In this document: one piece after another, positions 2,238 through 24,417 of the stretch | Layout: each line of letters begins with the position of its first letter | Numbering within the stretch: position 1 is the first letter of the stretch | Source: a virus | Reading direction: 5' to 3' (one strand) | DNA: 25,399 nt | Virus record (IMG/VR): IMGVR_UViG_3300032516_005962 | Span: 1 to 25,399 of that record | Notes under the pieces: generated by a model | Databases searched by the model: none | The model's input: the letters and a program-made list of their open reading frames with translations, nothing else | What the model was told of the DNA's origin: nothing | Position numbers and translations under genes: made by a program

Positions 2238-2834
2238 CTATCCTCCCGCGGCCATCACCTGAAGTCGCATCGACACTGGCTTGGCGATCTGCTCTCGATC
2301 CACGTAGTGGCCGCGGTAGTAGTCCCCGGTCGGGTAGATCGCGTAGGGCTGCATCTCCAGGTAGGCTCGCCCCAATGTCTTCTCGATCCGATAGACCGCG
2401 TGGAAGAAGTTCCCGCGATCGACGTGCGGAAAACCGTTCACACCCGCCGCGTGCGCCATCCGGACCCACCGCGCCAACAACGGTAGGCACGCCCGCCAAT
2501 CCATCTCGCAGAGGAAGTGCAGGCGAAACACCTGAAACTCGAAATCGTTGAGCAGCCGCCGGGCGATCAAAACAAAGTCCGCGCAAAACTCGGCATCTTT
2601 GTTCCCGTAATTGAATCCCATGCGCCGGCAGACCTCGGCCCTACTGGCGCGATACAGCCACAGTCCCACCGCCTGAGCGTACCGATACCGGGTCAGTGCT
2701 CCCCGGAAGGCTGACCGCAGCGCGCATCCGCAGAGGGCGACCTCGTTCCGGGCTTGATAGGTCCCGAGACCATAGCACTGGGCGCACCCGCGACGTGCGT
2801 TCCCCAGTGCGACCCCTCGCATCGCGTCCGTCAT
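2238..2834 (-). CDS. Zinc-ribbon plus helix-turn-helix protein of the packaging operon
   Basis: This is a 198-residue protein whose ATG (2834-2832) overlaps the terminase stop codon by 4 bases (ATGA), which fixes the start. The N-terminal part has two Cys pairs, C17-AQ-C20 and C35-G-C37, spaced as in a small zinc ribbon. Residues about 85-165 run DFVLIARRLLNDFEFQVFRL, then a second helix, then DRGNFFHAVYRIEKTLGRAY, which looks like the region 4 helix-turn-helix of sigma-70 type proteins. A DNA-binding role is therefore likely: a late transcription regulator, or a packaging accessory that recognises the phage end. No enzyme motif is seen. The same operon encodes a complete sigma factor, so this may be its partner or a degenerate relative. 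Confidence 0.7.
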   Translation of the reverse strand: MTDAMRGVALGNARRGCAQCYGLGTYQARNEVALCGCALRSAFRGALTRYRYAQAVGLWLYRASRAEVCRRMGFNYGNKDAEFCADFVLIARRLLNDFEFQVFRLHFLCEMDWRACLPLLARWVRMAHAAGVNGFPHVDRGNFFHAVYRIEKTLGRAYLEMQPYAIYPTGDYYRGHYVDREQIAKPVSMRLQVMAAGG

Positions 2835-4588
2835 AGCCTGATCGTCGGCGCCCTCTCCCCGGTGGTTCGTCGGCGACGGCCGTACCGGACTGCACCCCCG
2901 ACCGCGCTCCGTGGCGGCGCTGGCCGCTTCAGCCCCAGCAGTCGGGCATCCGCAGGCGGGTGCTCGAGGCCCACCACCCCCAGCGCCAGCGCAAACACCT
3001 CGTCGTCGTGACACCCGGCTTGCGCCGCCGGCTTCCCGCTCGCGTGGACCACGAACGTCCGGCACTCGGCCAGAGTGTTCGGATCCCGGATCACCACCGC
3101 CAACTCCCGGATCGCGGTGTCCAGTTTGCTGACTAACTGGATCCGAGTGACGGTGGTCGTGAGCCACCCCAGGTGCGAGAGAACGTTGTGCGCCTCCGGC
3201 GCGTACAGGTCGTCTGGCTGCGGGTGCCGGTGATAGATCAGCGCGGGCGGATACCCCTGGTGCTGAAGTTCGGTAAGTAGCGCCAGGCCGGCGCCGTTCG
3301 CCTCGGGCACCAAAAAGGCCCAGTTGTACCATCGCGCCAGCAGTGCCAGATAGACTCCCGCCGGCGATGGCTCCATGCGCGCCCGCAGCTTGCACACCTG
3401 CTCGCCGGTGTCTCGATCGATCACCGTGGCCACGGTGTAGTCCCGATCCGAAGCCCCGACCGCCTGCGGTCCCGCCGCGTCGATGCCCTCCGCCACGTCC
3501 ACCCCGATCACGTACAGCCGCTCGCGGCCGGGCTTCTTGTAGAGTGTGACGACCCCGCGATCCCGCATCTCGAACTGGATGTGCGTCTTCGGGCCTAGAG
3601 CGACTTCCACGAGCTCGCCCACCGGGGCGTCCCGAATGATCGGCATTCTCGCCAAATGCACGTGCGAGAATCGCGGCCGGCCCGAGAACAGGAACGCTTC
3701 CTCGGGGCAACTGGGGTACTCCTGGCGGAAGGTGTCCGGGTTGTTGTCGCAGTTGTTCCGAATGCACCAGCGCCGCCAGTTGAGTTGCTCCAGGCTCAGG
3801 CCGTACCGCTCGGCCAACTCGTACTCCTCATCCGTGAGCGACCGCTGGAACTCGTCCGCCGGCACGTCGAGAGCGCGCCGGTACTCCGGGTGCTCCCACC
3901 AGCCGCAGAAAATAGCCGTCCACTCGCATTCGCCCGCTGGGTCGTTCGCGCGTTGCCAGAGCTGGTAAAACTCGTTCCCGATCCCGTTCGCGGTGCTTTC
4001 AATCACCACCATGGTGTCCGGGTCGTCGGGCACCGACTGGATCAAGGCCGCCATGAGCGTCCGGGCGTCCCGCCAGAACGCGAACTCGCTCAGGTGCAGG
4101 TAGCGCAGTGAGAACGCGCGGCCCTTCCGAACGTTATTGGCGGTCGAGACCTTGATGTAGGACTTGTTCGCCCACCGCAGGATGCCGCGGTTGTCCTGCT
4201 TGAGCTTCGGGAGGCCGATCACGCCACGGAAGGGTTGATAGGTGTTCTGGAAGTGCTGGTAGTATCCGAAGATCTCCTCGGCGGCTTCCTTGTCGTGCGC
4301 CACCACCATCCCCTTCTGACCGCCCTGGAAGGGGATCTCCTGGAAGAATCTGGCGGCCGTCGCCGTCGAGACGAACACCTGCCGCGCTTTCAGGTAGATG
4401 ATCCGGATGGGGCGGCGCTTCTGGCGCAGCTCCTCGATCGCCAACCGCAGCTTCTCCGGCGCCGGCGCGAAGCTAAAAGGAATGATCTGGCCCTGCTTGT
4501 CCTGGACGGAGAGACACTCCTCCGCAAAGGTGCGGTGAACCTGGAAGTCCCGATACGCCTCCGCCAGCGCTGCCCGCGTGAGTGGCAC
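2831..4588 (-). CDS. terL: Terminase large subunit (packaging ATPase/nuclease)
   Basis: This is a 585-residue motor that pumps DNA into the prohead through the portal and cuts it. The ATPase half shows a deviant Walker A, KARQVFVST (residues 67-75), Walker B LRYLHLSE with the catalytic Glu at 168, and the coupling motif IESTANG near 197. The nuclease half has the RNase H-like acidic set: VIGVDVAEG (Asp364), PEANGAG (Glu429) and HDDEVFALALG (Asp528/529). All key residues are present and the length is normal. The start is a GTG at 4588 without a clear Shine-Dalgarno, and no better start lies upstream in frame. A REP-like palindrome fills the 31-base gap to the sigma gene. Terminase small subunit and portal are in the same operon. 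Confidence 0.95.
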   Translation of the reverse strand: MPLTRAALAEAYRDFQVHRTFAEECLSVQDKQGQIIPFSFAPAPEKLRLAIEELRQKRRPIRIIYLKARQVFVSTATAARFFQEIPFQGGQKGMVVAHDKEAAEEIFGYYQHFQNTYQPFRGVIGLPKLKQDNRGILRWANKSYIKVSTANNVRKGRAFSLRYLHLSEFAFWRDARTLMAALIQSVPDDPDTMVVIESTANGIGNEFYQLWQRANDPAGECEWTAIFCGWWEHPEYRRALDVPADEFQRSLTDEEYELAERYGLSLEQLNWRRWCIRNNCDNNPDTFRQEYPSCPEEAFLFSGRPRFSHVHLARMPIIRDAPVGELVEVALGPKTHIQFEMRDRGVVTLYKKPGRERLYVIGVDVAEGIDAAGPQAVGASDRDYTVATVIDRDTGEQVCKLRARMEPSPAGVYLALLARWYNWAFLVPEANGAGLALLTELQHQGYPPALIYHRHPQPDDLYAPEAHNVLSHLGWLTTTVTRIQLVSKLDTAIRELAVVIRDPNTLAECRTFVVHASGKPAAQAGCHDDEVFALALGVVGLEHPPADARLLGLKRPAPPRSAVGGAVRYGRRRRTTGERAPTIRL

Positions 4589-4607: not shown

Positions 4608-4630
4608 GTGGGACAGGCTTCAGCCTGTCG
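4608..4630. repeat. REP-like palindrome at the end of the sigma gene
   Basis: The arms GACAGGCT (4612-4619) and AGCCTGTC (4622-4629) are perfect inverted repeats around a 2-base loop, preceded by GTGG. The minus-strand stop codon of the sigma gene (4622-4620) lies inside the palindrome, so the element supplies the end of that protein. The same core recurs at 14227-14268, 21892-21909 and 22264-22281. Confidence 0.8.
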
Positions 4631-5165
4631 CCGTCCTGGAGTATCCGGCTTGCTCGAGGGCCCTACGCATACGCACCAGCATCCGCTTGTTCAACTGGCA
4701 GGTGCGACTCTCATTCACGCCCAGTCGCTTTCCCACGGCCTTGAGGAACAAGCCATCCGCGTAGTAGAGCCGCGCCAACTCCCGATCGCGCGCCGGCAGC
4801 GTCGCCAGCGCTTTGGCGAGTAATGCGCGCTCCCTCTGCCGATCGAGATCCTCATCGACGGTCGGATACTCGACCACTTGGACCTGACCGCTGGGGACCA
4901 TCAGTGATCCCAGCTCCTGGGCGTAGTGCGACCGCCGGTAGTGGTCCCACACCCGCCCACGCACCCGCCGCCAGGCGTAGCACGGGAAGGATGTGCACCG
5001 GCTGGGATCGTAGTCCTCCGCCGCGTGCAGCAATTCCATGAGCGCCCAGGCCTCCAGATCGTCGAGCTCGATCCAGGGCGGCATGCGCCGCTTGACGCTC
5101 AGCGCGACCAACCGGGCCAGCCCGCGGTACCGCAACACCAGGTCGTTGCGTGCGTCAACGTCCAC
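4620..5165 (-). CDS. RNA polymerase sigma factor, FliA/WhiG-like, lacking region 3
   Basis: This is a 181-residue sigma-70 family protein. Region 2 covers residues 5-80: LVLRYRGLARLV, then WIELDDLEAWALMELLHAAE for core binding, then FPCYAWRRVRGRVWDHYRR, which corresponds to the 2.3-2.4 promoter-melting and -10 helix. Region 4 covers about 120-175 (TLPARDRELARLYYADG, then a helix-turn-helix ending NKRMLVRMRRALEQ) and would read the -35. The linker is short, so region 3 is absent. It lies between the two terminase genes and overlaps the small subunit gene by 11 bases. The GTG start has a good GGGAGGAAG site. A phage-encoded sigma in the packaging operon suggests it redirects host polymerase to late genes. 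The last residues come from a REP-like palindrome, so the natural C-terminus may have been altered. Confidence 0.88.
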   Translation of the reverse strand: MDVDARNDLVLRYRGLARLVALSVKRRMPPWIELDDLEAWALMELLHAAEDYDPSRCTSFPCYAWRRVRGRVWDHYRRSHYAQELGSLMVPSGQVQVVEYPTVDEDLDRQRERALLAKALATLPARDRELARLYYADGLFLKAVGKRLGVNESRTCQLNKRMLVRMRRALEQAGYSRTATG

Positions 5166-5652
5166 GGGGTCTTCCTCCCTCGAAGACGGCTCGGAGGCGA
5201 TCCATGGTCAGGAGGGTCGGATCGCTCGATTGATCGCCGCCGCTCGGCACGCGTGGCTGCCCGGCGGTGACTAACTCGATCAGGCGCTTGACGGCTTGCA
5301 GACGTGCGTAGTGGTCGGCGCCCAGATCCAGGGCGCCGCCCTCTTTCGTCGCCACCACCTTGGTGGCGGCCAGCCCCTCGCCGATCACGCTTACCGCCTG
5401 TGCAACCAGGGCACGCAGGGCGGCGTGGTGGTCGGCAAGGAACGTGGCCAACTCGACCTGCGTCTCTGGTTGCTGCGCCTCCCGCGACGCCCACTGCCGC
5501 GACACGCCTGTCTCGCGCGCTACCTGCGCAATCGCCTTGCCCGCTACAACGCCCGCCGCGATCGCGCGCCGCCTGGCCCTGCTCCTCACGGCCCCCGGTC
5601 GTTTTACTGAGCCGCGACCGTCAGGGAGCGGTTTCTTCTTGGGTTTCGGCAC
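5155..5652 (-). CDS. terS: Probable terminase small subunit (HTH DNA-binding)
   Basis: This is a 165-residue protein, first gene of the packaging operon. A helix-turn-helix lies at about residues 36-60 (KAIAQVARETGVSRQWASRE), typical of small terminase subunits that recognise the packaging site and load the large subunit. The rest is helical, with AQAVSVIGEGLAATKVV and HYARLQAVKRLIELV as likely oligomerisation helices. The start is a GTG at 5652 with only a weak ribosome site. The N-terminal KPLPDGRGSVKRPG comes from a repeat element at 5612-5632, so translation could really begin further in, for instance at the GTG encoding Val22. Gene order (this gene, sigma, large subunit) supports the call. 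A transcription regulator is the alternative. Confidence 0.75.
   Translation of the reverse strand: MPKPKKKPLPDGRGSVKRPGAVRSRARRRAIAAGVVAGKAIAQVARETGVSRQWASREAQQPETQVELATFLADHHAALRALVAQAVSVIGEGLAATKVVATKEGGALDLGADHYARLQAVKRLIELVTAGQPRVPSGGDQSSDPTLLTMDRLRAVFEGGRPRGR
5612..5632. repeat. DGRGSV-type repeat element inside the first packaging gene
   Basis: On the minus strand the stretch encodes LPDGRGSV. It contains an imperfect dyad (ACCG...CGGT). I remember this peptide as a frequent read-through of a dispersed repeat in acidobacterial genomes. That is memory and has not been checked here. It sits at the very start of the coding region, where it could also be 5' leader. Confidence 0.5.
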
Positions 5653-5738
5653 GCCACCATACGTCGTCGCGAGCCGACGACGCCTTCAGACCTCTGCGGG
5701 CTGGCGCGCCCACGCCCGCAGCGCATCCCCTACGGGGA
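5653..5738 (-). promoter_or_regulatory. Structured 5' leader of the packaging operon
   Basis: Between the -10 box and the GTG start the minus-strand transcript can form three consecutive stem-loops: CCCC/GGGG near 5727-5737, an 8-bp stem CTGCGGGC/GCCCGCAG (5694-5701 with 5714-5721) and an 8-bp stem CGTCGTCG/CGACGACG (5662-5669 with 5675-5682) ending 9 bases before the start. No normal Shine-Dalgarno is seen. Translational control of the operon is plausible, but unrelated repeat insertion could give the same picture. Confidence 0.5.
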
Positions 5739-5744
5739 ATTATA
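5739..5744 (-). promoter_or_regulatory. -10 box (TATAAT) of the packaging operon
   Basis: The minus strand carries a perfect TATAAT here, about 87 bases upstream of the first packaging gene. The -35 region 17-18 bases further up (TGGTAA/GGTAAA, near 5762-5768) is a poor match to TTGACA, as expected for an activated promoter or one needing a different sigma region 4. Confidence 0.6.
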
Positions 5745-5866
5745 AGCGAAAGTGTGCTCGATTTACCACACTTTCCCACGCGGGTGGGTGGGTTGCCGGA
5801 ACACCCACTCACCCACCGAAGTCCTCTTCTTCTAATTCTTTCTCAATAATGATGGGAGGCCCTCTG

Positions 5867-5920
5867 ACCGAAACTCCACTTCCCGTTCAACCGAAACTCG
5901 GGTTCCGGTGTCCGAAAACG
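5867..5920 (+). repeat. Iteron-like CCGAAA repeats in the divergent control region
   Basis: ACCGAAACTC occurs at 5867-5876 and again at 5890-5899, and a third copy with CCGAAAACG begins at 5912. The CCGAAA cores are 23 and 21 bases apart, about two helix turns, so a protein would meet them on the same DNA face. They lie between divergent operons and about 370 bases upstream of a replication-initiator-like gene. A further CCGAAACT is at 10812. They could be iterons of an origin or operators of an early regulator. Confidence 0.55.
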
Positions 5921-5967
5921 AACACAGGTACTCCAGTTGCGGTATCCATCCCGACTAAAAATACTTC

Positions 5968-5997
5968 TTGACAGACTTCGTAGTTTTGCGCTTAAAT
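5968..5997 (+). promoter_or_regulatory. Consensus plus-strand promoter giving a leaderless transcript
   Basis: A perfect TTGACA (5968-5973) is followed after 18 bases by TTAAAT (5992-5997, four of six consensus positions). Seven bases separate the -10 from the ATG at 6005, so the expected transcription start falls on or next to the start codon. There is no Shine-Dalgarno in between. This is a strong host-sigma promoter for the early operon. Confidence 0.75.
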
Positions 5998-6004
5998 CAG
6001 AAAC

Positions 6005-6223
6005 ATGCGGGCTCCTCTGAACCTGGCTGAGGCTGCCCGCACCTTACGCACCGGTCGGCCCCGCTCCCGAGTACGCGAGGCCGCTCGCCTCCTAAAATCG
6101 GCCGTCCGCCACTGTCGGGGCGGCCGTCCGCGAACTCGCAAGCACCTCGTCGGTCGCTACTGCGAGTGCTCTGAGTGTCGCCTCAGCCGCAAGGCGGCTC
6201 TGAAGCCTAAACCCCCGGCCTGA
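6005..6223 (+). CDS. Small basic Cys-containing protein, first early gene
   Basis: This is a 72-residue, strongly Arg/Lys-rich protein read directly from the promoter at 5968, apparently leaderless. The segment EAARLLKSAVRHCRGGRP (residues about 25-42) matches EAGRLLQARRRHRRGGRP in the product of the gene at 10870 at 12 of 18 positions, and both continue into a Cys pair (here C-E-C-SE-C around residues 53-58). The two are therefore likely homologous. A small zinc-binding, DNA-binding regulator is the best inference, and no named family is recognised. The C-terminal KPKPPA overlaps one arm of a stem-loop at 6199-6234 and may be repeat-derived. The next gene starts 61 bases downstream. Confidence 0.65.
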   Translation: MRAPLNLAEAARTLRTGRPRSRVREAARLLKSAVRHCRGGRPRTRKHLVGRYCECSECRLSRKAALKPKPPA

Positions 6224-15651: not shown

Positions 15652-15862
15652 CGGCGACCTCGACCGGGCGCCCGTGCCGCCGCCGCCCATCGTGCCGCTC
15701 GTCGCACACGCCCTGGCGCACGAAGTCACGGTCCACCTGGTCCAGGACGCGCTTCTCCATTTCCAGCAGCGCCACGCGCAGGCGCAGGCTCAGCCAGACG
15801 TTGAATCCCTGGGAGGCCAGCGCCACCACGCTCACCACCACCGCAATCAATCCGTCGCTCAT
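15641..15862 (-). CDS. Small one-TM protein with coiled stalk
   Basis: This is a 73-residue protein coupled to the giant protein gene by an ATGA overlap. Residues 3-22 (DGLIAVVVSVVALASQGFNV) form one transmembrane helix. The next 20 (LRLRVALLEMEKRVLDQVDR) form a coiled stalk, then comes FVRQGVCDERHDGRRRHGRP. The plan fits a small holin, spanin-like or other lysis-associated inner-membrane protein at the end of a virion operon, but no family is certain. It may also assist insertion of the giant protein. Confidence 0.65.
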   Translation of the reverse strand: MSDGLIAVVVSVVALASQGFNVWLSLRLRVALLEMEKRVLDQVDRDFVRQGVCDERHDGRRRHGRPVEVADEG

Positions 15863-18800
15863 GGCTTCTGGCCCCCCTTCACGAGATCTCGAATCGCCGC
15901 CCCGTGGTGTTGCCGCAGTACCGACAGTTCCTCCGGCGACTTCGTTTGCAACCCGCTGAGCACCTTCAGGATCAGGACGCCGCGCACCTTACCGCGTTCC
16001 TCGGCATTCGCCAGCTGCCACACGTCCAGGGCCTGATCCAACCCGAGACTCTTGAACCCGCGCGTGAATCGGTCCGTGGTCGCCTGGCGCAGGACTCGCA
16101 CCAGGTCCTCTCGTGTGAGGTTACCCGCCTTCATCTGCTCCGCGATGATCGGCCCCGCGGGTTTGTGTTGCCGCAATGCCTGCGCGACGTCTGCCCTGGC
16201 CCGCGCCCGCGCGTAGCTCTCCTTCGGCTGCGCTCCGGCTGGGCGGCGTTCTCCGAGTAGTTCGGCTTGGAGCGCCTCCGCCGGCGTCTGCGTGACGTAA
16301 CTCGGTGCCGCGGTGATCCCGATCATGGGCAGGACCTGCATGGCGACGCCCGCCCCGCGTTGCCGCTCGCGTTGAATGTTCTGGAAGGCGTAGGGCCGGA
16401 TCCCCGTGAAGTACTTCAGGCTGTCGAGGACCTGCTTGTAGGCCGGGTCATGCGGATCATGGATCATCGTGCCCCAGAAGTCCTCGTTCGTCAAGACGTC
16501 GGCAGTCCGCCCGACCAGGGGGTTCAGTTTGTTCCGCGCGGCTTGCAACGGGTGCGCCTGGCCGAGCCCCAATCCGAGCCAGTGCACCTGATCCTTCATG
16601 TAGCCCGGCCAACTGAACCGTTCTGGGCGACCCTGCTCGTCGTAGTTGCCAGTGCGCGGAAAGAAGTAGTCTTTGCGATCGTCCGGGAGCCGGCCCCACC
16701 GCAGGTAGGCGTAGACGGCTCCCATGAACCCGATCAGCATCGGCAGTGCCAGCACGTACGCCATGCGATGCGTGAACTCCGGCCTCCCCGGCGCCCCGAA
16801 CTCAGGCGGCGGTCCACCGCCCGCCGGCGGCTCTCCGCCGGCCGGCGGCGCCGGGCGCCTACCGACGATCCTCCGTCCGATGCGCCCGGCCTGCCGGGCG
16901 TAGTCGATGTAGCCGCCTCCGAGTTCGCGGAACGTGCCGAGGTTCCACCCCAAACTCTGCACGCTGATCATCCCGAGGTCTTTCACCGCGCGGTTCCAGA
17001 ACAGGTCGTCGTAGACGAGTTGGCCCATCCGGTTGTCCACCGAATCCCAGCAGCGGGCGAAGACTTGGCGGACCTCCTCACGGGTGGCGTTCTGCGGCAG
17101 CCGTGCGAGTTCGAACTGCGCCATGTCGGCGAACACCCCGAGTTTCTGCCGAGGCACAACCCACTCCATGATCGGCCAGGCCGCGGTCTCCATGACCGCC
17201 GGCAGCGCCGTGAGAAGTACTCCTGCCGGGTTCTTCGCGGTCCAGAAATCCGCCAGCCGTTCCCGGAACTTGGTGCGGTAAACCGGATCCATGCGCGCGC
17301 GCCCGCCGCCGGCCAGCATCGCTTCGATGATCTTGACGGTCTCCGGGTCCTGGTTCGTGGCCGCGAACCACTCCCGGATGACCTTGTTGCCCTTCAGGAC
17401 ATTCTGCACCGGCGAGATCGGTACTTCGAGTACCCGCTGGACCGCCTTCAGCGGCATCCCTGCCGCGAGGTACTTGAGCGCGATCGCCAGCTTGGACGTC
17501 GCCGCATCTACCGAAGTGAACCCGAGGTGGAACCCGCTGAAGCTCAACGACCACTGGACCATCAGGTTCGCGCTGCCCAAGAGCGGTCTGAACCAGCCTT
17601 TCTGCCGCAGGCCCGGGCTGAGGAAGTTCTTCAGCACGACCACCGCGGACTCCGGCATAAACCACTTGCCCTTCAGGACGAACCCGCCCAGTGGGTAGGT
17701 CGCGCTGCCCTCCGCCAGTTCCATGCCGTACCGGATTTCCTTCAGCCGCGCCAACTCGGGGTGCGCCTCGATGAAGTCCTCGAACCAGGTGAACGTTGCC
17801 GGCGCCACTCGCTCGAAGGCCTCCGGGGCGTGAACGTAAGCCGCCACCAGGTTGGCCATCTTCTCGGCTTTGCGGCGCACGTACCGCCGGAAGTGCGCCG
17901 GCGGTTCCCCGCCCAGCCGCAAGTCAGCGAGCAGGCGCAACTCCTCGCGGTGGGGCTTCGTCTTAACGACCTGCTGGGACAACTTGTACCGATGATCGAG
18001 CACGTGCCCGATCTCGTGGACCAGGACGCTCTCCGGCCCGGCGAACCGCGTCTTCACTTCGCCCTTGCCCGGCTGCGCGTAGCCCCACGCCGGCCCGCGC
18101 AAGGTGGCCAGCCGCTCGTGGGTAATCCCCAGGCTCTTGGCGAATTCCTCGAGCCCGCGCATCATCTCCGCATCAAAGGCTTCGCGCACTTTGATCTCGG
18201 GCGGGCCCCACACCGTTCCGATCGGGTCGGGTGTCTCGGTCCACCCGAACGGCGGCCGCCCACCCAGCGCCGGCACGAACCGCGCCAGGCCCAGGTCCTT
18301 CATCTCCCGGATGAAGCGGTGCGCCAGCAAGAAGCGGTCCATCTCGCGCAACTTGAGCAACACCAGGTCCACCGGATTCCAGCTCACCGGTTCGAGCCCG
18401 GCTTCGAGCCCCTCGCGGAAGAACAGGTACGTGCGTTTCTTCAGGAACGCTTTCGGCCCTTCAAGCGGCCGCCGCCCGAAAATCGCTCGCCAGATTTTGG
18501 TTCGCTCTTCCGTGCTCCGCCGTTTCCAGATGTGCGGGAAATAGGTCTCGTAGTACGCGGTGAGCTTCCCCTCGCCCAACCCCTGCACCTCCCGGCGATG
18601 GTTGTCCAGCAGGTTGCGGAACAATCCCGCGATCGCGTCCAGGTCAGTGTTTTCCTGGGCCTGGCCCTCCTCCATCCTGTGAATGAAAGTTGACACGAAT
18701 TCGTGGGGCTGCCCCCGGAAAAACTTCCGCGCCTTGCGTAGCGCGGCCTCGGCGTGGTCGAAAGCTCGCGCGGTTTCCGCCCCGTGCGCACGCAGGCTCA

Positions 18801-21800
18801 AAGCGCTCTGGCGCGCCATAACGTCCAGACTCGCTGGCGCAAAGGTCTTTCGGACGTCCTGCCTGAACTCCCGCACCGCGTCCGCCGCCGCTCGCAGACC
18901 CTCGATCATAGGGCTCGGCTCCCCGGTCACGGGTCCGCTGACGGACGCCACCGGCGCCGCCGCTGCCGCCGGCGCCGGGGTAATCATCCGCATGAGCAGC
19001 GGCTCGTCGCCGAACAGACCCTCCTCGGGCAGTGCATCGAACTTCGGGTCGAACAATTCGCCCTGCGGCGGCGCCGGCTCCTCGCTGAAGAGGCCCGGTT
19101 GGGTCACTCCCGCGGCTTTCCTGAGTTTGCGCCGCGCATTCTGGCGCGTCAGAGCGCTGTTGAACTCCGCGGTCAGTCGCTCGGCTTCGATTCGCCGCTG
19201 CTGCTCGGCTTCGGCTTCTCGTTGCTTTCCGGTGTCGAAGTCGGGGAAGAGCTCCCGCTGGAGAGTGGGGCCGGCTTCAGCCGGCCGTCCGGAAACATCT
19301 TGTCGAACGTCTCGTCGAAGTTCCCCTCCTGGTAAGCCTCGAGCAGCTTCTCCAGGTTGCTCACTGAGTCTTTGGACATCTGCCAACACCCTCCTAAAAT
19401 CCGGCGCCGCCCGGCGAAAAACCGCCAGTGCTTCGCGCCCATGCGCCGCCACAATGTACTCCAAGTAGCGCCTGATGAGGTATCGCGCCTGCTCCCGATC
19501 GAGCCCCAGCAGCCGCCACCCCACAGGTCCCTCGGCCAGGTGGGCCCCGAGTTCCGCAGCCAGGATCTCCGTGTCACGTGGATATCCGCGGCTGATCAGG
19601 TTGTCTGTGGCGGCATCAGCGAGTGGATCGGTGAGGAAGTACACCGCACCGTCCTCACCCATCAGGTTCCTGACCTCCGGCGAGATCTGGAACTGTTGTG
19701 CATGGTGAACCTCATGGCGTGCCGCCCTGACGGCCGTAGGGCCGGCCTGGACAACAACCACATGTCCCGTCTCCGCACCTGCCGCTTCGAGGACGTCGGC
19801 GAACGCGTTGGCTGCCGAGTCGCGGACTGTTCGCAGGCGTCTGATGACTCGAGTAACGCGGTACGCCTCCATCAACCAACCGCCCAAAGGACCGTGCACC
19901 TGCTCGGCCTCCTGGAGAACCAGCATCGCCTGCTGGTTGACCAAGACGAGGGTCGGATCCTGCGTTCCACCCTGGATTAACCGCGCCTCGGCGTCCGCAC
20001 CCATCTCTCGACCCGTGTCATATCCCCGCCAGGGTTTCAACGGCTTCCCGCGCAAGTGCCAGGTTTCCCCCCGCCGCGCTGTCCGCTCGAACGCCGCCGG
20101 CAACTGCTCCCGCATGAAGACCACCGGCTCCCCGGCGCCGGCGCCCTTCGCTTTCGGCCTGCGTTCGGCCTTCTCGATCTCTTCGCGTTTCTCGATAAAC
20201 GCCGCCCGAAACGCCTCCTCGGGCGTCAACGGCGTGAAGAACGACGCCGGCGCGCCCGGCCGTCCGTTCGCCTCTTCGCCGGCGAAGGCCCGGAAGACCT
20301 TGGCCGCGTTCACCGGCCCGAGTTGCAGGGTCTTGGCAATGGCGATCGCTGGCTGACTGTAACCCTCGGTCGTCGGCCACAGCGTGGCCTGGCCGATGTA
20401 GTCAGCCACGCTCCGAACGCCGTGCGCCCGCATTTCCTCGAGCAGGTCGATCGCCTCGCGCACCCACCCCAGGATGTTCCAGTCGCCCCGCTGCGCCACC
20501 CGGACGATGGGCGCCACCAGGCGTTCGAGCTTCGCGCGCAGTTCCGGCGGCGCCGCTTCAAACTGATTCGTGTCCCGAAACAGCCGCCCCACCAGCAGGC
20601 GCGCGATCCGGCGCTTGCCCTCCTCGGTCACCAGCTCGTATTTGCGGGCGGTCCCCTTGACCGCGCGCTCCTCGATGTACTCGCCCTTCGCCTGGTCGGT
20701 GATGACGCCATCGGCCACCAGCCGGGCAATCACCGCAGGTCCGCCGTCCCCTTCGAGTGCCTGAAGGAGCGTTCCCTCCGGCCCCTGTTCGTCGATCTTG
20801 CCGGCGATGAAGTCGAGTGTCTCCTGTGACACTCGCCTCGAGTCAGCCAGGGCGCGCTCCGCCGGCGTCAGCGCCGCCGTCCCCGTCTTGTTCAGGTCCG
20901 TGATGGCTTCCTGGGGATCGAGTTCCTCGTCCGGCGTCTGGATCACGCGGACCAGCACCGGCTGCCGGAACTCGTTCAACCGCACCGGATCCAGACCGAA
21001 GTTCCGCGCCTTCCCCGCCAGGTAGTCGCGGTACTTCTGCGCCAGGCCCGGCTCGTGCTCGTAGACCCACTTCAGGATCAACGCTCGCCCGTTCCCGCCG
21101 AGCGGTCGCCCGTAACGGTCGATCATCGTAGGGCCCTGTTCCGGGCCCGGATCGTCCGTCACGAGCCAGGCCGGATCGAATTTCGCCGGACTCCGGTTCA
21201 GGCGCACACGTTGCTGATTCACCGCCTTCGTGTAGTCCCGGTCGTTGACGTACGGATACTCCGGGTTGGGCTGGAAAGTGTTCGGATCGTGCGACGTCAC
21301 CAGGTCGGCCGCCTCGATCAGCCGGTACTGCGCCGGGTATCGCCGATCCTCTCCCGGGACCAGGATGGCGGTGGCGTCGCCGCTTTCCATGCGTACAGCC
21401 AGCCCCGCCACCACCCGCTTGTGTTTCACCTCCCGCGCCGACACCCGCGCCTTCGCCGGCTCCAGGGGCTTCTCTGGCGCAGGGGGTTTCGCCTGCGGGG
21501 CCACCTCGGGTTTGGCCTTGACCGGTGTGGGTTTCGCCGGCGCCGCCGCCGCCGCCACCGGCTCAGGCTTGGCTTTCGGCGCGACCACCGGCGCGGCAGG
21601 CTTCAGTTCGGCCGCCGCCGGGGCTAACTTCAGCAAATCCCCCCGCGCCTCGTCGAACCCCGCCTCGTCGTTCATCCCCGCGGTCTTCAGCGGCCCGGGC
21701 CCTGGATAATGCTCCAACTCGAGCAGTTGTTGCACCTGCGTGCGGTTCCGCACTTTCGCCAGCGACGGCGGGAGCCGATCCGCCTCCATCGCCTCGGCCA

Positions 21801-24417
21801 GCGCGCGCAGTGTCCCCTGCAACCGTTCGAGCCGCCCCGCCTCCCGCGCCAGGTCCTCCTGACTGCGCTGCCCGCGGCCCTTCGCCCGTGGGACAGACTT
21901 TAGTCTGTCGATGGCAGCCGTCAACTTCCCCGCCGCCTGCCTCAATCCGGCGATAACTATGGCATTCTTAGGCGCTACTTTTCGCGCCGGCTTCTTCACC
22001 CCGGAGGCCTCCAGTGCCGCGTCGAGTTCCGCCCGCACTTGCCGCGCCGCCTGGCGCATCGCTTCCGGGGTCTTGGCCGGCTCGGGCACGGTCAACCCGA
22101 GTTGCGCGGCGTAGTGCTGGAGCGACCGGACGTAGGTCTCGAGGGCTTTCCGCCGCTCCGGCGCCGTTCCCCGCGCGATCTCCAGGCTGGCGTACTTCTC
22201 GATCGCGTCCGTCTGCCGCTTCACGGCCTCGACCATGAGCGCCTGGTCTTTGCCCAGCCGTGGCACAGGCTTTAGCCTGTGAGGTTCCGCCGCCGGCGCC
22301 GCCGCCCCGCGCTCCGCCGCCGCCGGGACTCGCTCGACGACCTGCTCTGCTACCTTACCTGCCGCACTAGCCAGCCGGGCGACCTTCGGGTTCAGTATCA
22401 CCAGTTGATCGCCGCTGGCCGCCTTGAAGAACTTGATGTCTTGCCCCGCCAGTTCGCGCACGTTGCGGAGGGCGACGGCATCGTACCGCTTCGCGAGCGC
22501 GTCCCAGAAGTTCGGGTCGTCGACTGGGAAGACTCGTTTGCCGGCCACCTCGGTCGCCTCCCGAACCGCCGCCCGAAGTGAATCCTCACTGTCGATGGTC
22601 AGGACGGTGGCCTTCGGATCCACCCGGTAGGAGACCGGCGCCAGATCCCGGGTCTCCCAGGCGCCCAGTTCCACCATCCACTTCTGCTGGTCGTAATCGT
22701 AAAACGGGCGCCCTTGGTGGACGTTCTCCTCGGTGCCCTCGACCACCTGGCCTTCGCCCGTTCTGACCTCGACCTTGCTCCAGCGTTCGTCGTCCAGGGA
22801 CAAGTACAGTCTGTCCCCGGCCTCTTTGCCGGTGCCCGTCTCGCGCCCGAGCCCCGGCGCCATACCGTGCACCGGGGCCCGGGTGGCCTCGAAGGGTTGG
22901 CCCGCCTCGAGCGCCGCCGCCGACTCCGGCGTCGTCCAGTGCCGGAAAACCCCCGGCTCAACCGCTTTTCCTAGCTGACTAGGAATTTCCTCGGCCGGTG
23001 CCTGCGCGGGCGCGGCGACCACCGCCGGTTCGACCTTGGCCGGGACCGCCTCCTTCAGCGGCAGGTCAGCCCCCTTCTGTAACTGGATCTCCCTCTCGGC
23101 AGCGGCACGTATGGCCTCGGCGGTTCGGCGGTCAACCCCTGCCCTCACCAGGTCCGCCACCACGGGCTGGCTTTCGGGCACGCGGGCAACTTGGGTACCC
23201 GGTGGCGCCTCCAAGGGCCTCCCCGTGGCCTCCCCGGCTCTTTGGTGCCTCAACGTCTCGTCGATGATCTGGTCCAGGAGACTGACCTGGTCCTTCGTCG
23301 GCGCCGGCCCCTTGGCCTCTGTTTCGACCTCAACTAGCCGCCCCTGGGCGTCCTGGACCTGGACTACCTGGCGCTTCACCGCCGGCCCGGGTTCGCTCGG
23401 CGGTTTCCCTGGCTGCGGTCCTCGCCCGGGTGGGCCACCGGCGGTGCCTCCAGGTGCCTGGAGGTCGGCCGCGGTTCGTTGACGGCCTTCTCTGGCCTCA
23501 CGGAAGGCATCCTGGAGTTCTGGGAGGCCGCGAGCGGCTGCCCGAAGCGCCAAGGCGCTCAGAAGGGCATCGACCCCGGCGAATCCCCAGTCTTTGGCCG
23601 CCCCGTGCGGATCCCCGGCGAGGTACTTTTCGGCACCGCTAACTGTAGCCTTTCCTGCCCCGACGCCAGCGACCCCACCAATCACCGCCAGTGCGCCTCG
23701 GTAGAGAACCTGCCCTACCCTCGGAATGGCCTGTAGACTCCCCAGAGCGGTGGCGCCCAGCAGGCTCTCCGCTGAGGTGAACCCCGACGCCTGCTCCGCC
23801 GCCGATCGCATCCCGGTCTGAAGGGCGGTTTCGCCAGGAGCCTCCGGAGGAAACAGCAGGTCGAACCGAAAAGTTGGCTCCTCGAGGGTCTTGGCCTGGC
23901 GCCCGGTGATGTTTCGCTGGACGAAATCGTCCACGAAGTCCGCGACCCGCTCAGCCGGACTCCACCCCTGCAGGGGTGCCGGCTGGGGTTGCCCTGGCCG
24001 CGGCGCCGCCTCGACCACCGGAGTCGTCAAACTCGGGGCCACCCGGAGGCGTTTGACCGCCTCGACCGCCTTCCCGACGAGGGGCCGCACGACCTCGCCC
24101 AGCGCCTCCATCTCCGGCTCGGCGACGATCGGGCCAGTGGCCTCTGGCACGTCCAGGCCCGGCACCACCGGCGCCCGTCCCGCCTCCGGCAACGGGCCCA
24201 GCCGCTCCATCCCCGGCACCGCCGGCGCCGTCTCCCGTTGCCGCTTCAGGTCCACCAGGGCCAGGAATCGGTCCTGTTCGATCGGCTCCATCCCTCCAAA
24301 CCGCTCCGGAGCCGCCAGTTTCAGGGCAGACCTGCGCTCCTCTGGGTCGAGCGCGTAGAACTTCGGCGTGGCGAGGAGATCCTGGAGGGTAACGGTCGTC
24401 TGGGCCGCCGCGGCCAT
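15859..24417 (-). CDS. Giant phage polyvalent protein: ART-like, ParB/DdrB-like, two HExxH metallopeptidases, membrane C-terminus
   Basis: 2852 residues in one frame. The N-terminus LLATPKFYALDPEERRSALK is phage-virion-like, with Gly/Ala-rich hydrophobic stretches near 215-290. ADP-ribosyltransferase-like region about 490-680: FRHWTTPESAAALEAG, RLYLSLDDE, YDAVALRN and DQLVILNP; the catalytic Glu is not certain. Then coiled coil and a Pro/Ala/Lys linker (about 930-1000). ParB/DdrB-like domain about 1010-1250: AADLVTSHDPNTFQPNPEYP and GRPLGGNGRALI. First zincin-like domain: HEVHH at 1568-1572, with AAELGAHL (Glu1622) as likely third ligand. Second: HEIGH at 2134-2138, with Glu2185 in KAEKMANLVAAY. 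The C-terminal third carries a hydrophobic helix (about 2551-2574) and resembles the tail domains of large polyvalent proteins. In that published class such proteins are packaged and injected to counter host functions. The next upstream gene ends 1 base before it. Confidence 0.88.
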   Translation of the reverse strand: MAAAAQTTVTLQDLLATPKFYALDPEERRSALKLAAPERFGGMEPIEQDRFLALVDLKRQRETAPAVPGMERLGPLPEAGRAPVVPGLDVPEATGPIVAEPEMEALGEVVRPLVGKAVEAVKRLRVAPSLTTPVVEAAPRPGQPQPAPLQGWSPAERVADFVDDFVQRNITGRQAKTLEEPTFRFDLLFPPEAPGETALQTGMRSAAEQASGFTSAESLLGATALGSLQAIPRVGQVLYRGALAVIGGVAGVGAGKATVSGAEKYLAGDPHGAAKDWGFAGVDALLSALALRAAARGLPELQDAFREAREGRQRTAADLQAPGGTAGGPPGRGPQPGKPPSEPGPAVKRQVVQVQDAQGRLVEVETEAKGPAPTKDQVSLLDQIIDETLRHQRAGEATGRPLEAPPGTQVARVPESQPVVADLVRAGVDRRTAEAIRAAAEREIQLQKGADLPLKEAVPAKVEPAVVAAPAQAPAEEIPSQLGKAVEPGVFRHWTTPESAAALEAGQPFEATRAPVHGMAPGLGRETGTGKEAGDRLYLSLDDERWSKVEVRTGEGQVVEGTEENVHQGRPFYDYDQQKWMVELGAWETRDLAPVSYRVDPKATVLTIDSEDSLRAAVREATEVAGKRVFPVDDPNFWDALAKRYDAVALRNVRELAGQDIKFFKAASGDQLVILNPKVARLASAAGKVAEQVVERVPAAAERGAAAPAAEPHRLKPVPRLGKDQALMVEAVKRQTDAIEKYASLEIARGTAPERRKALETYVRSLQHYAAQLGLTVPEPAKTPEAMRQAARQVRAELDAALEASGVKKPARKVAPKNAIVIAGLRQAAGKLTAAIDRLKSVPRAKGRGQRSQEDLAREAGRLERLQGTLRALAEAMEADRLPPSLAKVRNRTQVQQLLELEHYPGPGPLKTAGMNDEAGFDEARGDLLKLAPAAAELKPAAPVVAPKAKPEPVAAAAAPAKPTPVKAKPEVAPQAKPPAPEKPLEPAKARVSAREVKHKRVVAGLAVRMESGDATAILVPGEDRRYPAQYRLIEAADLVTSHDPNTFQPNPEYPYVNDRDYTKAVNQQRVRLNRSPAKFDPAWLVTDDPGPEQGPTMIDRYGRPLGGNGRALILKWVYEHEPGLAQKYRDYLAGKARNFGLDPVRLNEFRQPVLVRVIQTPDEELDPQEAITDLNKTGTAALTPAERALADSRRVSQETLDFIAGKIDEQGPEGTLLQALEGDGGPAVIARLVADGVITDQAKGEYIEERAVKGTARKYELVTEEGKRRIARLLVGRLFRDTNQFEAAPPELRAKLERLVAPIVRVAQRGDWNILGWVREAIDLLEEMRAHGVRSVADYIGQATLWPTTEGYSQPAIAIAKTLQLGPVNAAKVFRAFAGEEANGRPGAPASFFTPLTPEEAFRAAFIEKREEIEKAERRPKAKGAGAGEPVVFMREQLPAAFERTARRGETWHLRGKPLKPWRGYDTGREMGADAEARLIQGGTQDPTLVLVNQQAMLVLQEAEQVHGPLGGWLMEAYRVTRVIRRLRTVRDSAANAFADVLEAAGAETGHVVVVQAGPTAVRAARHEVHHAQQFQISPEVRNLMGEDGAVYFLTDPLADAATDNLISRGYPRDTEILAAELGAHLAEGPVGWRLLGLDREQARYLIRRYLEYIVAAHGREALAVFRRAAPDFRRVLADVQRLSEQPGEAARGLPGGELRRDVRQDVSGRPAEAGPTLQRELFPDFDTGKQREAEAEQQRRIEAERLTAEFNSALTRQNARRKLRKAAGVTQPGLFSEEPAPPQGELFDPKFDALPEEGLFGDEPLLMRMITPAPAAAAAPVASVSGPVTGEPSPMIEGLRAAADAVREFRQDVRKTFAPASLDVMARQSALSLRAHGAETARAFDHAEAALRKARKFFRGQPHEFVSTFIHRMEEGQAQENTDLDAIAGLFRNLLDNHRREVQGLGEGKLTAYYETYFPHIWKRRSTEERTKIWRAIFGRRPLEGPKAFLKKRTYLFFREGLEAGLEPVSWNPVDLVLLKLREMDRFLLAHRFIREMKDLGLARFVPALGGRPPFGWTETPDPIGTVWGPPEIKVREAFDAEMMRGLEEFAKSLGITHERLATLRGPAWGYAQPGKGEVKTRFAGPESVLVHEIGHVLDHRYKLSQQVVKTKPHREELRLLADLRLGGEPPAHFRRYVRRKAEKMANLVAAYVHAPEAFERVAPATFTWFEDFIEAHPELARLKEIRYGMELAEGSATYPLGGFVLKGKWFMPESAVVVLKNFLSPGLRQKGWFRPLLGSANLMVQWSLSFSGFHLGFTSVDAATSKLAIALKYLAAGMPLKAVQRVLEVPISPVQNVLKGNKVIREWFAATNQDPETVKIIEAMLAGGGRARMDPVYRTKFRERLADFWTAKNPAGVLLTALPAVMETAAWPIMEWVVPRQKLGVFADMAQFELARLPQNATREEVRQVFARCWDSVDNRMGQLVYDDLFWNRAVKDLGMISVQSLGWNLGTFRELGGGYIDYARQAGRIGRRIVGRRPAPPAGGEPPAGGGPPPEFGAPGRPEFTHRMAYVLALPMLIGFMGAVYAYLRWGRLPDDRKDYFFPRTGNYDEQGRPERFSWPGYMKDQVHWLGLGLGQAHPLQAARNKLNPLVGRTADVLTNEDFWGTMIHDPHDPAYKQVLDSLKYFTGIRPYAFQNIQRERQRGAGVAMQVLPMIGITAAPSYVTQTPAEALQAELLGERRPAGAQPKESYARARARADVAQALRQHKPAGPIIAEQMKAGNLTREDLVRVLRQATTDRFTRGFKSLGLDQALDVWQLANAEERGKVRGVLILKVLSGLQTKSPEELSVLRQHHGAAIRDLVKGGQKP
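19270..19285. repeat. REP-like palindrome in the giant gene (copy 3)
   Basis: GCCGGCT-TC-AGCCGGC, a perfect 7-bp stem, with GGG before and CGTCCGG after. In the giant protein it is read as SGRPAEAGP near residue 1710, in the linker after the first metallopeptidase domain. Another frame reads DGRLKPAP, the usual read-through of this family. Confidence 0.65.
21888..21909. repeat. REP-like palindrome in the giant gene (copy 2)
   Basis: GTGG then GACAGACT-TT-AGTCTGTC (stem 21892-21899 with 21902-21909). The minus strand encodes DRLKSVPR near residue 838, inside a coiled-coil linker region. Confidence 0.75.
22264..22281. repeat. REP-like palindrome in the giant gene (copy 1)
   Basis: CACAGGCT-TT-AGCCTGTG, a perfect 8-bp stem preceded by TGG. 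The minus strand encodes HRLKPVPR near residue 714, just after the ADP-ribosyltransferase-like region. Confidence 0.78.
23963..23978. repeat. 16-base perfect palindrome in the giant gene
   Basis: CACCCCTGCAGGGGTG is fully self-complementary. It is read as APLQGWSP near residue 149, in a Pro-rich linker between the N-terminal motif and the first hydrophobic stretch. Its sequence differs from the REP-like family, and its flanks are also GC-rich. Confidence 0.6.

Follow-up and report, generated by a model that had tools for sequence, protein, structure and literature searches.

Here we describe a putative phage-encoded sigma factor whose gene lies between the two terminase genes of a virus, an arrangement that recurs in many relatives of that virus. 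The stretch analysed (hereafter the window) is a 25,399-base IMG/VR record for which no completeness estimate is given. On its minus strand, a sigma-70-family gene (4620–5165) stands between a terminase small subunit-like gene (TerS; 5155–5652) and the gene for a terminase large subunit of 585 amino acids (TerL; 2831–4588). We consider it rather probable that the gene encodes a phage late sigma factor that, being itself a product of the late operon, would create positive feedback.

From family profiles and a structural model, the product (181 amino acids, GTG start) is predicted to be a sigma-70-family protein that is nearest to FliA/WhiG, minus region 3. In sigma-70 proteins, region 2 serves core binding and −10 recognition, and region 4 contacts the −35 element and the beta flap. 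Pfam recognized region 2 (Sigma70_r2, PF04542; 6.1e-9, 36 bits against a cut-off of 24) and region 4 (Sigma70_r4, PF04545; 8.6e-9, 35.2 bits against 24.1) in the window protein, with no match to region 3 (PF04539), and the general sigma-70 model TIGR02937 was passed with 74.4 bits (cut-off 42.9). FliA ranked first among NCBIfam models (3.1e-29, 102.5 bits), and the FliA/WhiG model TIGR02479 gave 6.2e-29 and 101.3 bits; both matches are split in two stretches and both scores lie below the cut-offs (201 and 189.6, respectively), probably because region 3 is missing. Sigma homologues elsewhere in MAGs match over about 230 amino acids, compared with the 181 of the window protein. FliA and WhiG also came first in sequence searches of the PDB. 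An AlphaFold2 model (pLDDT 83, pTM 0.47) has two confident parts joined by a low-confidence linker at residues 89–102; the top Foldseek row is an integrative model labelled RPSD-RPOB, followed by WhiG and sigma-28, and WhiG and FliA head the named families, although whole-chain TM-scores reach only some 0.4, as the two sigma domains are loosely placed. Having only sigma2 and sigma4, by Pfam and by predicted structure, is a trait of ECF (group 4) factors, but the affinity by sequence is different: FliA/WhiG models outscore, and PF08281 fell below its cut-off. A sequence-only reading of this DNA had assigned the protein to the FliA/WhiG type; these group 3 factors are indeed its best sequence and named structure matches (NCBIfam, PDB and Foldseek), but the window protein departs from them in its missing region 3, in falling short of the curated family cut-offs and in being encoded in a terminase operon.

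That reading had also placed the gene between the terminase subunits, and this is borne out by the two Pfam regions above their cut-offs, by the TerL match to phrog_2 (1.4e-23; tblastn also links it to annotated phage TerLs) and, for TerS, through relatives. The TerS-like gene of the window has a weak N-terminal HTH match, a helical model and a C-terminal tail that resembles those of its relatives, and profile relatives occupy the same place elsewhere. Its match to phrog_2538 is weak (E = 0.048). The TerS-position ORFs of relatives L091 (3.7e-5) and L090 (1.4e-4) match phrog_2538, a 'terminase small subunit' profile, those of L007 and L099 match it weakly (0.07 and 0.043, with L099 also matching the TerS profile phrog_1482 at 0.001), and those of L092 and L093 gave no TerS match in the PHROG search. 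Most of the L090 protein can be aligned with L011's clear TerS (phrog_4044, 5.9e-32), and none of 500 shuffles did as well; in the same test of the window ORF, 47 and 266 of 500 shuffles were as good. Its predicted structure (pLDDT 69) had no significant fold match in the PDB. Because the window ORF itself fails the shuffle alignment test, its putative identity as TerS depends on the family link to the relatives.

The GTG of the sigma gene (5165–5163) lies inside the TerS gene, the stop codon of which is at 5157–5155, so the two genes overlap by 11 nucleotides; a likely ribosome-binding site read from the sequence, GGGAGG (5174–5179, minus strand), sits within the end of the TerS gene. Translational coupling of the two genes had been asserted from the sequence: the overlap and the ribosome-binding site are seen, and coupling can fairly be inferred from them. 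In the window, sigma is the second gene after a divergent intergenic region (5653–6010) that separates the minus-strand packaging genes from plus-strand genes. The operon gene after TerL encodes a conserved protein of 198 amino acids (2238–2834, minus strand; ATGA overlap with the TerL stop), with a Cys-rich N terminus and an HTH-like C terminus by eye and no family match for the window copy; it is possibly a second regulator. Homologues were noted by eye in L006 and L159, and the L159 copy weakly matches sigma region 4 (E = 0.019). The next large same-strand gene (1–1524) runs off the window; its identity as a portal was guessed from position only and is unsupported by sequence: PHROG gave no match, and neither did BLASTP against two annotated portals. 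A palindrome (4612–4629) spans the sigma stop codon and has an exact copy in the L003 contig and in no other of 179 loci; we take it to resemble a dispersed bacterial repeat. Farther along, a minus-strand gene (15859–24417) encodes a protein of 2,852 amino acids of the polyvalent-protein type, with a ddrB-like ParB domain (2.5e-12).

The arrangement was surveyed among TerL relatives. Viral scans covered the best 80 loci from each of at least 566, 138 and 90 relatives, which favours near TerL relatives, and loci were counted if their TerL scored 520 bits or more against model A5. This set aside 25 lower rows (not deduplicated), including L314 and L323, which have weak sigma matches upstream. 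Of 86 distinct TerLs, 7 with no sigma and less than 1,200 nucleotides upstream were dropped, leaving 79 evaluable; these retain 4 sigma-bearing loci with less than 1,200 nucleotides upstream (L193, L266, L279 and L263) and two near-identical pairs (L191/L226 and L253/L319), L319 being scored as 'none' despite the distant sigma of its near-identical partner L253. Among the matches listed, 56 of the 79 relatives carry a related sigma gene, in the same orientation, in the 3.5 kb upstream of TerL, and 39 have the exact order TerS–sigma–TerL, sigma being no more than 1.4 kb from TerL. The other sigma-bearing loci comprise 10 sigma–TerL pairs in which TerS was unrecognised, 2 with sigma farther away and TerS present, 3 farther away without TerS, and 2 in which sigma precedes TerS (L220 and L221). 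When the same flank requirement was applied to both classes, the counts were 52 of 75 for sigma and 38 of 75 for the exact order. A location between terminase subunits had been called uncommon beforehand; no other state is as common within this TerL clade. Two of the nearest annotated TerLs have no sigma annotated beside them.

An overlap between the sigma and TerS genes is seen in 12 of the 15 loci compared, window included and with start codons as chosen; the remaining gaps are 12 nucleotides (L099), 1 nucleotide (L161) and 45 nucleotides (L159). The first-round relatives share the gene order, with sigma proteins 23–83% identical to that of the window. Some loci vary the theme: L090 carries a tandem pair of sigma-like genes between TerS and TerL (4944–5516 and 5513–6043), the L010 gene (1358–1889) is split over two reading frames by a frameshift, an error or decay, and a DUF3102 protein lies between sigma and TerL in L007 (1745–2245) and L094 (5319–5861).

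No sigma was recognisable in 23 of the 79 relatives, some of which share a TerL subclade with sigma-bearing loci; TerS is close to TerL in 14 of these, farther away in 2 and unrecognised in 7. On the TerL tree, the presence or absence of sigma requires 11 changes, compared with a mean of 20.1 for shuffled labels, and none of 500 shuffles was as low. Sigma is therefore clustered on the tree, with several gains or losses; this larger tree replaces a picture of 2 changes from the first, 21-row tree, from which the region-2-only row L098 had been left out. The type of TerS is linked to the presence of sigma, in a manner that is suggestive only: the HTH type occurs 37 times with sigma and once without, and the Sf6 type 4 times with and 15 times without, in counts that contain only two phylogenetically independent pairs and rely on an HTH-type model built from ORFs adjoining sigma genes, which favours the HTH–sigma pairing. 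Replacement of sigma by another regulator is not general in the sigma-less relatives. In L095, one of these, a NusG/KOW-like protein is encoded upstream of TerS (3821–4420); in single-sequence searches within 4 kb of TerL, its relatives were found in 1 of 23 sigma-less and none of 56 sigma-bearing loci, and those of the LuxR-type HTH protein of L011, which is also sigma-less, in 2 of 23 and 2 of 56.

A scan of genomes yielded eight loci, six in Acidobacteriota MAGs and two in Christensenella. The arrangement is present in four of the Acidobacteriota MAGs (L092, L093, L094 and L099); L098 has a region-2-only sigma well upstream of TerL, and L095 has none. Neither Christensenella locus has a sigma beside TerL, and one of them (L097) has a weak region-4 match about 3.9 kb upstream. 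Further genome searches gave 59 loci, of which 7 have sigma near TerL (four re-hits and the new L135–L137); no sigma was found in the other 52, mostly with far more distant TerLs, within flanks of about 1.5 kb. Judging by the relatives in MAGs, the host of the window virus is probably acidobacterial.

In a tree of 14 phage sigmas and 8 homologues elsewhere in six MAGs, a branch with support of 98/96 separates the two sets; the split L010 gene was left out, and the phage rows L093, L099 and L159 have long branches. Relative to L002, L003, L006 and L092, dN/dS is 0.17–0.44 for sigma, 0.21–0.30 for TerS and 0.08–0.17 for TerL, values that are rough for the pairs in which dS exceeds 1. The phage sigma genes are under purifying selection, and these ratios, together with the conservation counts, make the gene more than a chance ORF. 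Pfam found region 2 in all 14 family proteins scanned (13 above the cut-off), and region 4 above the cut-off in 8 and below it in 2 (L093 and L161); region 4 was unfound by Pfam in L159, L160, L098 and the second sigma of L090. All of the proteins scanned, window included, match phrog_351 and most also match phrog_1740 (both 'RNA polymerase sigma factor'), but these are broad profiles. Among 50,697 phage records there was no match covering most of the window sigma; the coverage reached by three unannotated faecal 'Bacteriophage sp.' records is 40–43%. For the sigma of L091, one match was obtained, to a 595-kb uncultured phage record (24.5% identity), and for that of L093 there was none in the corresponding search.

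In two longer relatives, sigma stands towards the start of a long block of probably late or virion genes, as judged from a putative operon structure based on genes called with a crude in-house caller. In G005 (48.1 kb), a run of 45 called genes (4358–40509) shares one strand without exception, with TerS sixth and sigma seventh. The gene for the major head protein follows sigma at a distance of about 10 kb (16930–17856; phrog_371, 1.6e-12), and the two matches obtained from eight proteins scanned in the block were both to head or virion proteins. A similar block in G004 (46.5 kb) is interrupted by three small contrary ORF calls. No obvious promoters were seen by eye in the gaps of the block.

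We searched for promoters that such a sigma factor might use. A −10-like hexamer, TATAAT (5739–5744, minus strand), is a candidate upstream of TerS with no −35 match. The sequence-only reading was right that the −35 is weak there, as no sigma-70 hexamer pair occurs in 5500–6100 of the window, but its suggestion of autoregulation from this site is unsupported: the hexamer is a generic −10, and the equivalents in relatives (TATACT in L002 and L003, TATAAT in L006, nothing clear in L092) have no conserved −35. TATAAT is present on the late strand in 2 of 37 TerS-upstream regions. A match with two mismatches to the FliA-type promoter TAAA-N15-GCCGATAA, read by eye as TAAA-N14-GCTTATAA, stands just before TerS (5765, minus strand); it was rejected as evidence, being one of three two-mismatch sites on that strand of the window and absent from the aligned relatives. 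Counts of FliA-type sites, observed against those expected from first-order Markov shuffles and with spacings of one site counted apart, were 17/11.2 (plus) and 16/10.4 (minus) in the window and, per strand, 10/10.6 and 11/10.8 in G001, 20/12.2 and 18/14.6 in G002, 9/5.6 and 13/10.1 in G003, 47/49.8 and 58/36.1 in G004, and 81/50.8 and 59/43.2 in G005. Four of the 12 strand scans exceed the shuffles by about 2–2.5 SD, on the late strand in the window and G005 and on the other strand in G002 and G004; we rejected the excess as evidence because it is not consistently on the late strand.

A common motif before late genes had been proposed as a check, and nothing convincing emerged when the late strand was searched for FliA-type, sigma-70-type or, without bias, any bipartite motifs. 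In a test for motifs shared between late gaps, which left out G002 as a near-copy of G001, G003, G004 and G005 fell within shuffles; G001 (4 regions) scored 3 against a mean of 2.02 (range 2–3), and the pooled set of 36 regions scored 6 against 4.45 (range 4–6), from a GC-rich pair. In the 37 TerS-upstream regions, sigma-28 promoters were no better than in shuffles (best mismatches 4.00 versus 4.02). An enrichment of GCCGAT in these regions (14 versus 4.7 in shuffles) was rejected, with TerL coding controls at 9.2 and GCCGATA in 0 of 37. By the condition that the sequence-only reading had set, this weakens the case for a late sigma, but the test has low power because the late genes appear to form one long block with few gaps and the sigmas are diverse. 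Sigma-70-like pairs have mean best mismatches of 4.43 on the late strand and 3.65 on the opposite strand of the 37 regions, compared with 4.29 ± 0.09 in shuffles; because enrichment is on the opposite strand only, the late genes may use no ordinary promoter type, whereas the divergent early genes may do so. In the window, a promoter-like TTGACA, 18 nucleotides, TTAAAT for the plus-strand genes (5968–5997) has a TTGACA that is invariant in five aligned phages. Three tandem palindromic repeats near ACCGGAACTNNAGTTCCGGT (5867–5886, 5890–5909 and 5924–5943) lie between the divergent gene sets and look like repressor operators; L003, L006 and L092 also have three, each with one 23-nucleotide spacing.

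A close precedent concerns Xpf, a factor that acts on the late operon of PBSX; its gene presumably precedes the PBSX terminase pair instead of lying inside it, whereas the window sigma lies between the subunits. Xpf of Bacillus subtilis is described as a prophage-linked, 19.95-kDa, 'positive control' sigma-like factor with sigma2 and sigma4 only (PMC10141391, PMC9836290; also PMC4243946). On that account, it resembles the window sigma in its domains and its prophage link, and differs in its Bacillota host and in its placement in Group IV (PMC10141391, PMC9836290), the window sigma being nearest to FliA/WhiG. Phage sigma factors that act on sporulation in Bacillota are also on record: ELDg168 and ELDg169 of Bacillus phage Eldridge form a neighbouring pair (PMC9429907) and in this resemble L090, with its two adjoining phage-borne sigma genes; the word 'terminase' is absent from the main text of that paper. 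Phage sigma-like late activators and phage dormancy sigmas are thus already known, and a sigma factor between terminase subunits was not found described in the open-access literature searched (PMC).

For the favoured late sigma, we infer core binding, promoter targets, timing and, because of gene order, a feedback loop. The protein would be a minimal, phage-specific sigma2–linker–sigma4 factor nearest to the FliA/WhiG branch. Host polymerase would first transcribe the operon at a low level from the region before TerS, for which TATAAT is one candidate, and ribosomes ending TerS would restart on the sigma gene, so that sigma accumulates with TerS. It would then bind host core RNA polymerase and direct it to one or more late promoters, including one before TerS, and the resulting feedback would commit the infection to packaging and virion production. 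The two sigma domains and their fold, the overlap with TerS, the conserved order, the clustering on the TerL tree, the separation of phage sigmas from the MAG homologues, selection, the G005 block, the strand difference in sigma-70-like pairs before TerS and the Xpf precedent support this reading; the lack of a convincing late-strand motif, the sigma-less relatives and genome loci, and the patchy recovery of region 4 count against it. It is doubtful that HTH-type TerS and sigma go further and form a cassette that wires packaging to late transcription. In such a cassette, the two overlapping genes would usually come and go as a unit, and TerS might act as a gate on sigma or as its competitor at the same DNA, which would keep late transcription in step with packaging capacity.

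The absence of region 3, and the TATAAT or TATACT with no conserved −35 in the window, L002, L003 and L006, would also suit a sigma-like activator that is no true sigma, with region 4 docking on DNA or polymerase beside the host sigma-70 holoenzyme to activate a late promoter with a good −10 and a poor −35. We regard this as unlikely: region 2 is found in every family protein scanned and is kept where region 4 is unfound, and TATAAT is rare in the late-strand upstream regions. Alternatively, the factor might redirect host polymerase to FliA-type or other host promoters (motility, stress or dormancy), its terminase location only setting the timing. The nearest characterised relatives are host FliA/WhiG, our motif searches returned no phage target promoter, and published phage sigmas alter host dormancy (PMC9429907), but such a function has no need to stay beside terminase genes across so many relatives, and we think it improbable. 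Its position between the subunits, and the HTH matches shown also by TerS-like proteins, could indicate a packaging accessory whose DNA-binding domains act with TerS or TerL and have no role in transcription; the presence of region 2, a polymerase-binding domain, in all 14 proteins scanned and the TerL relatives with no recognisable sigma make this very improbable. The split gene of L010 is what a chance ORF or decaying gene might look like, an explanation to which we give almost no credence, as the domain scores, dN/dS and above all the wide conservation refute it in practice.

Acidobacteriota are an abundant, little-studied phylum. If the late-sigma reading is true, a phage lineage linked to them runs its late genes by its own region-3-less FliA-type sigma factor, encoded in the packaging operon. 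This would provide a testable late switch and a marker for mining metagenomes for the lineage, and the sigma-bearing and sigma-less relatives with similar TerLs would offer a natural comparison of how a late regulator changes.
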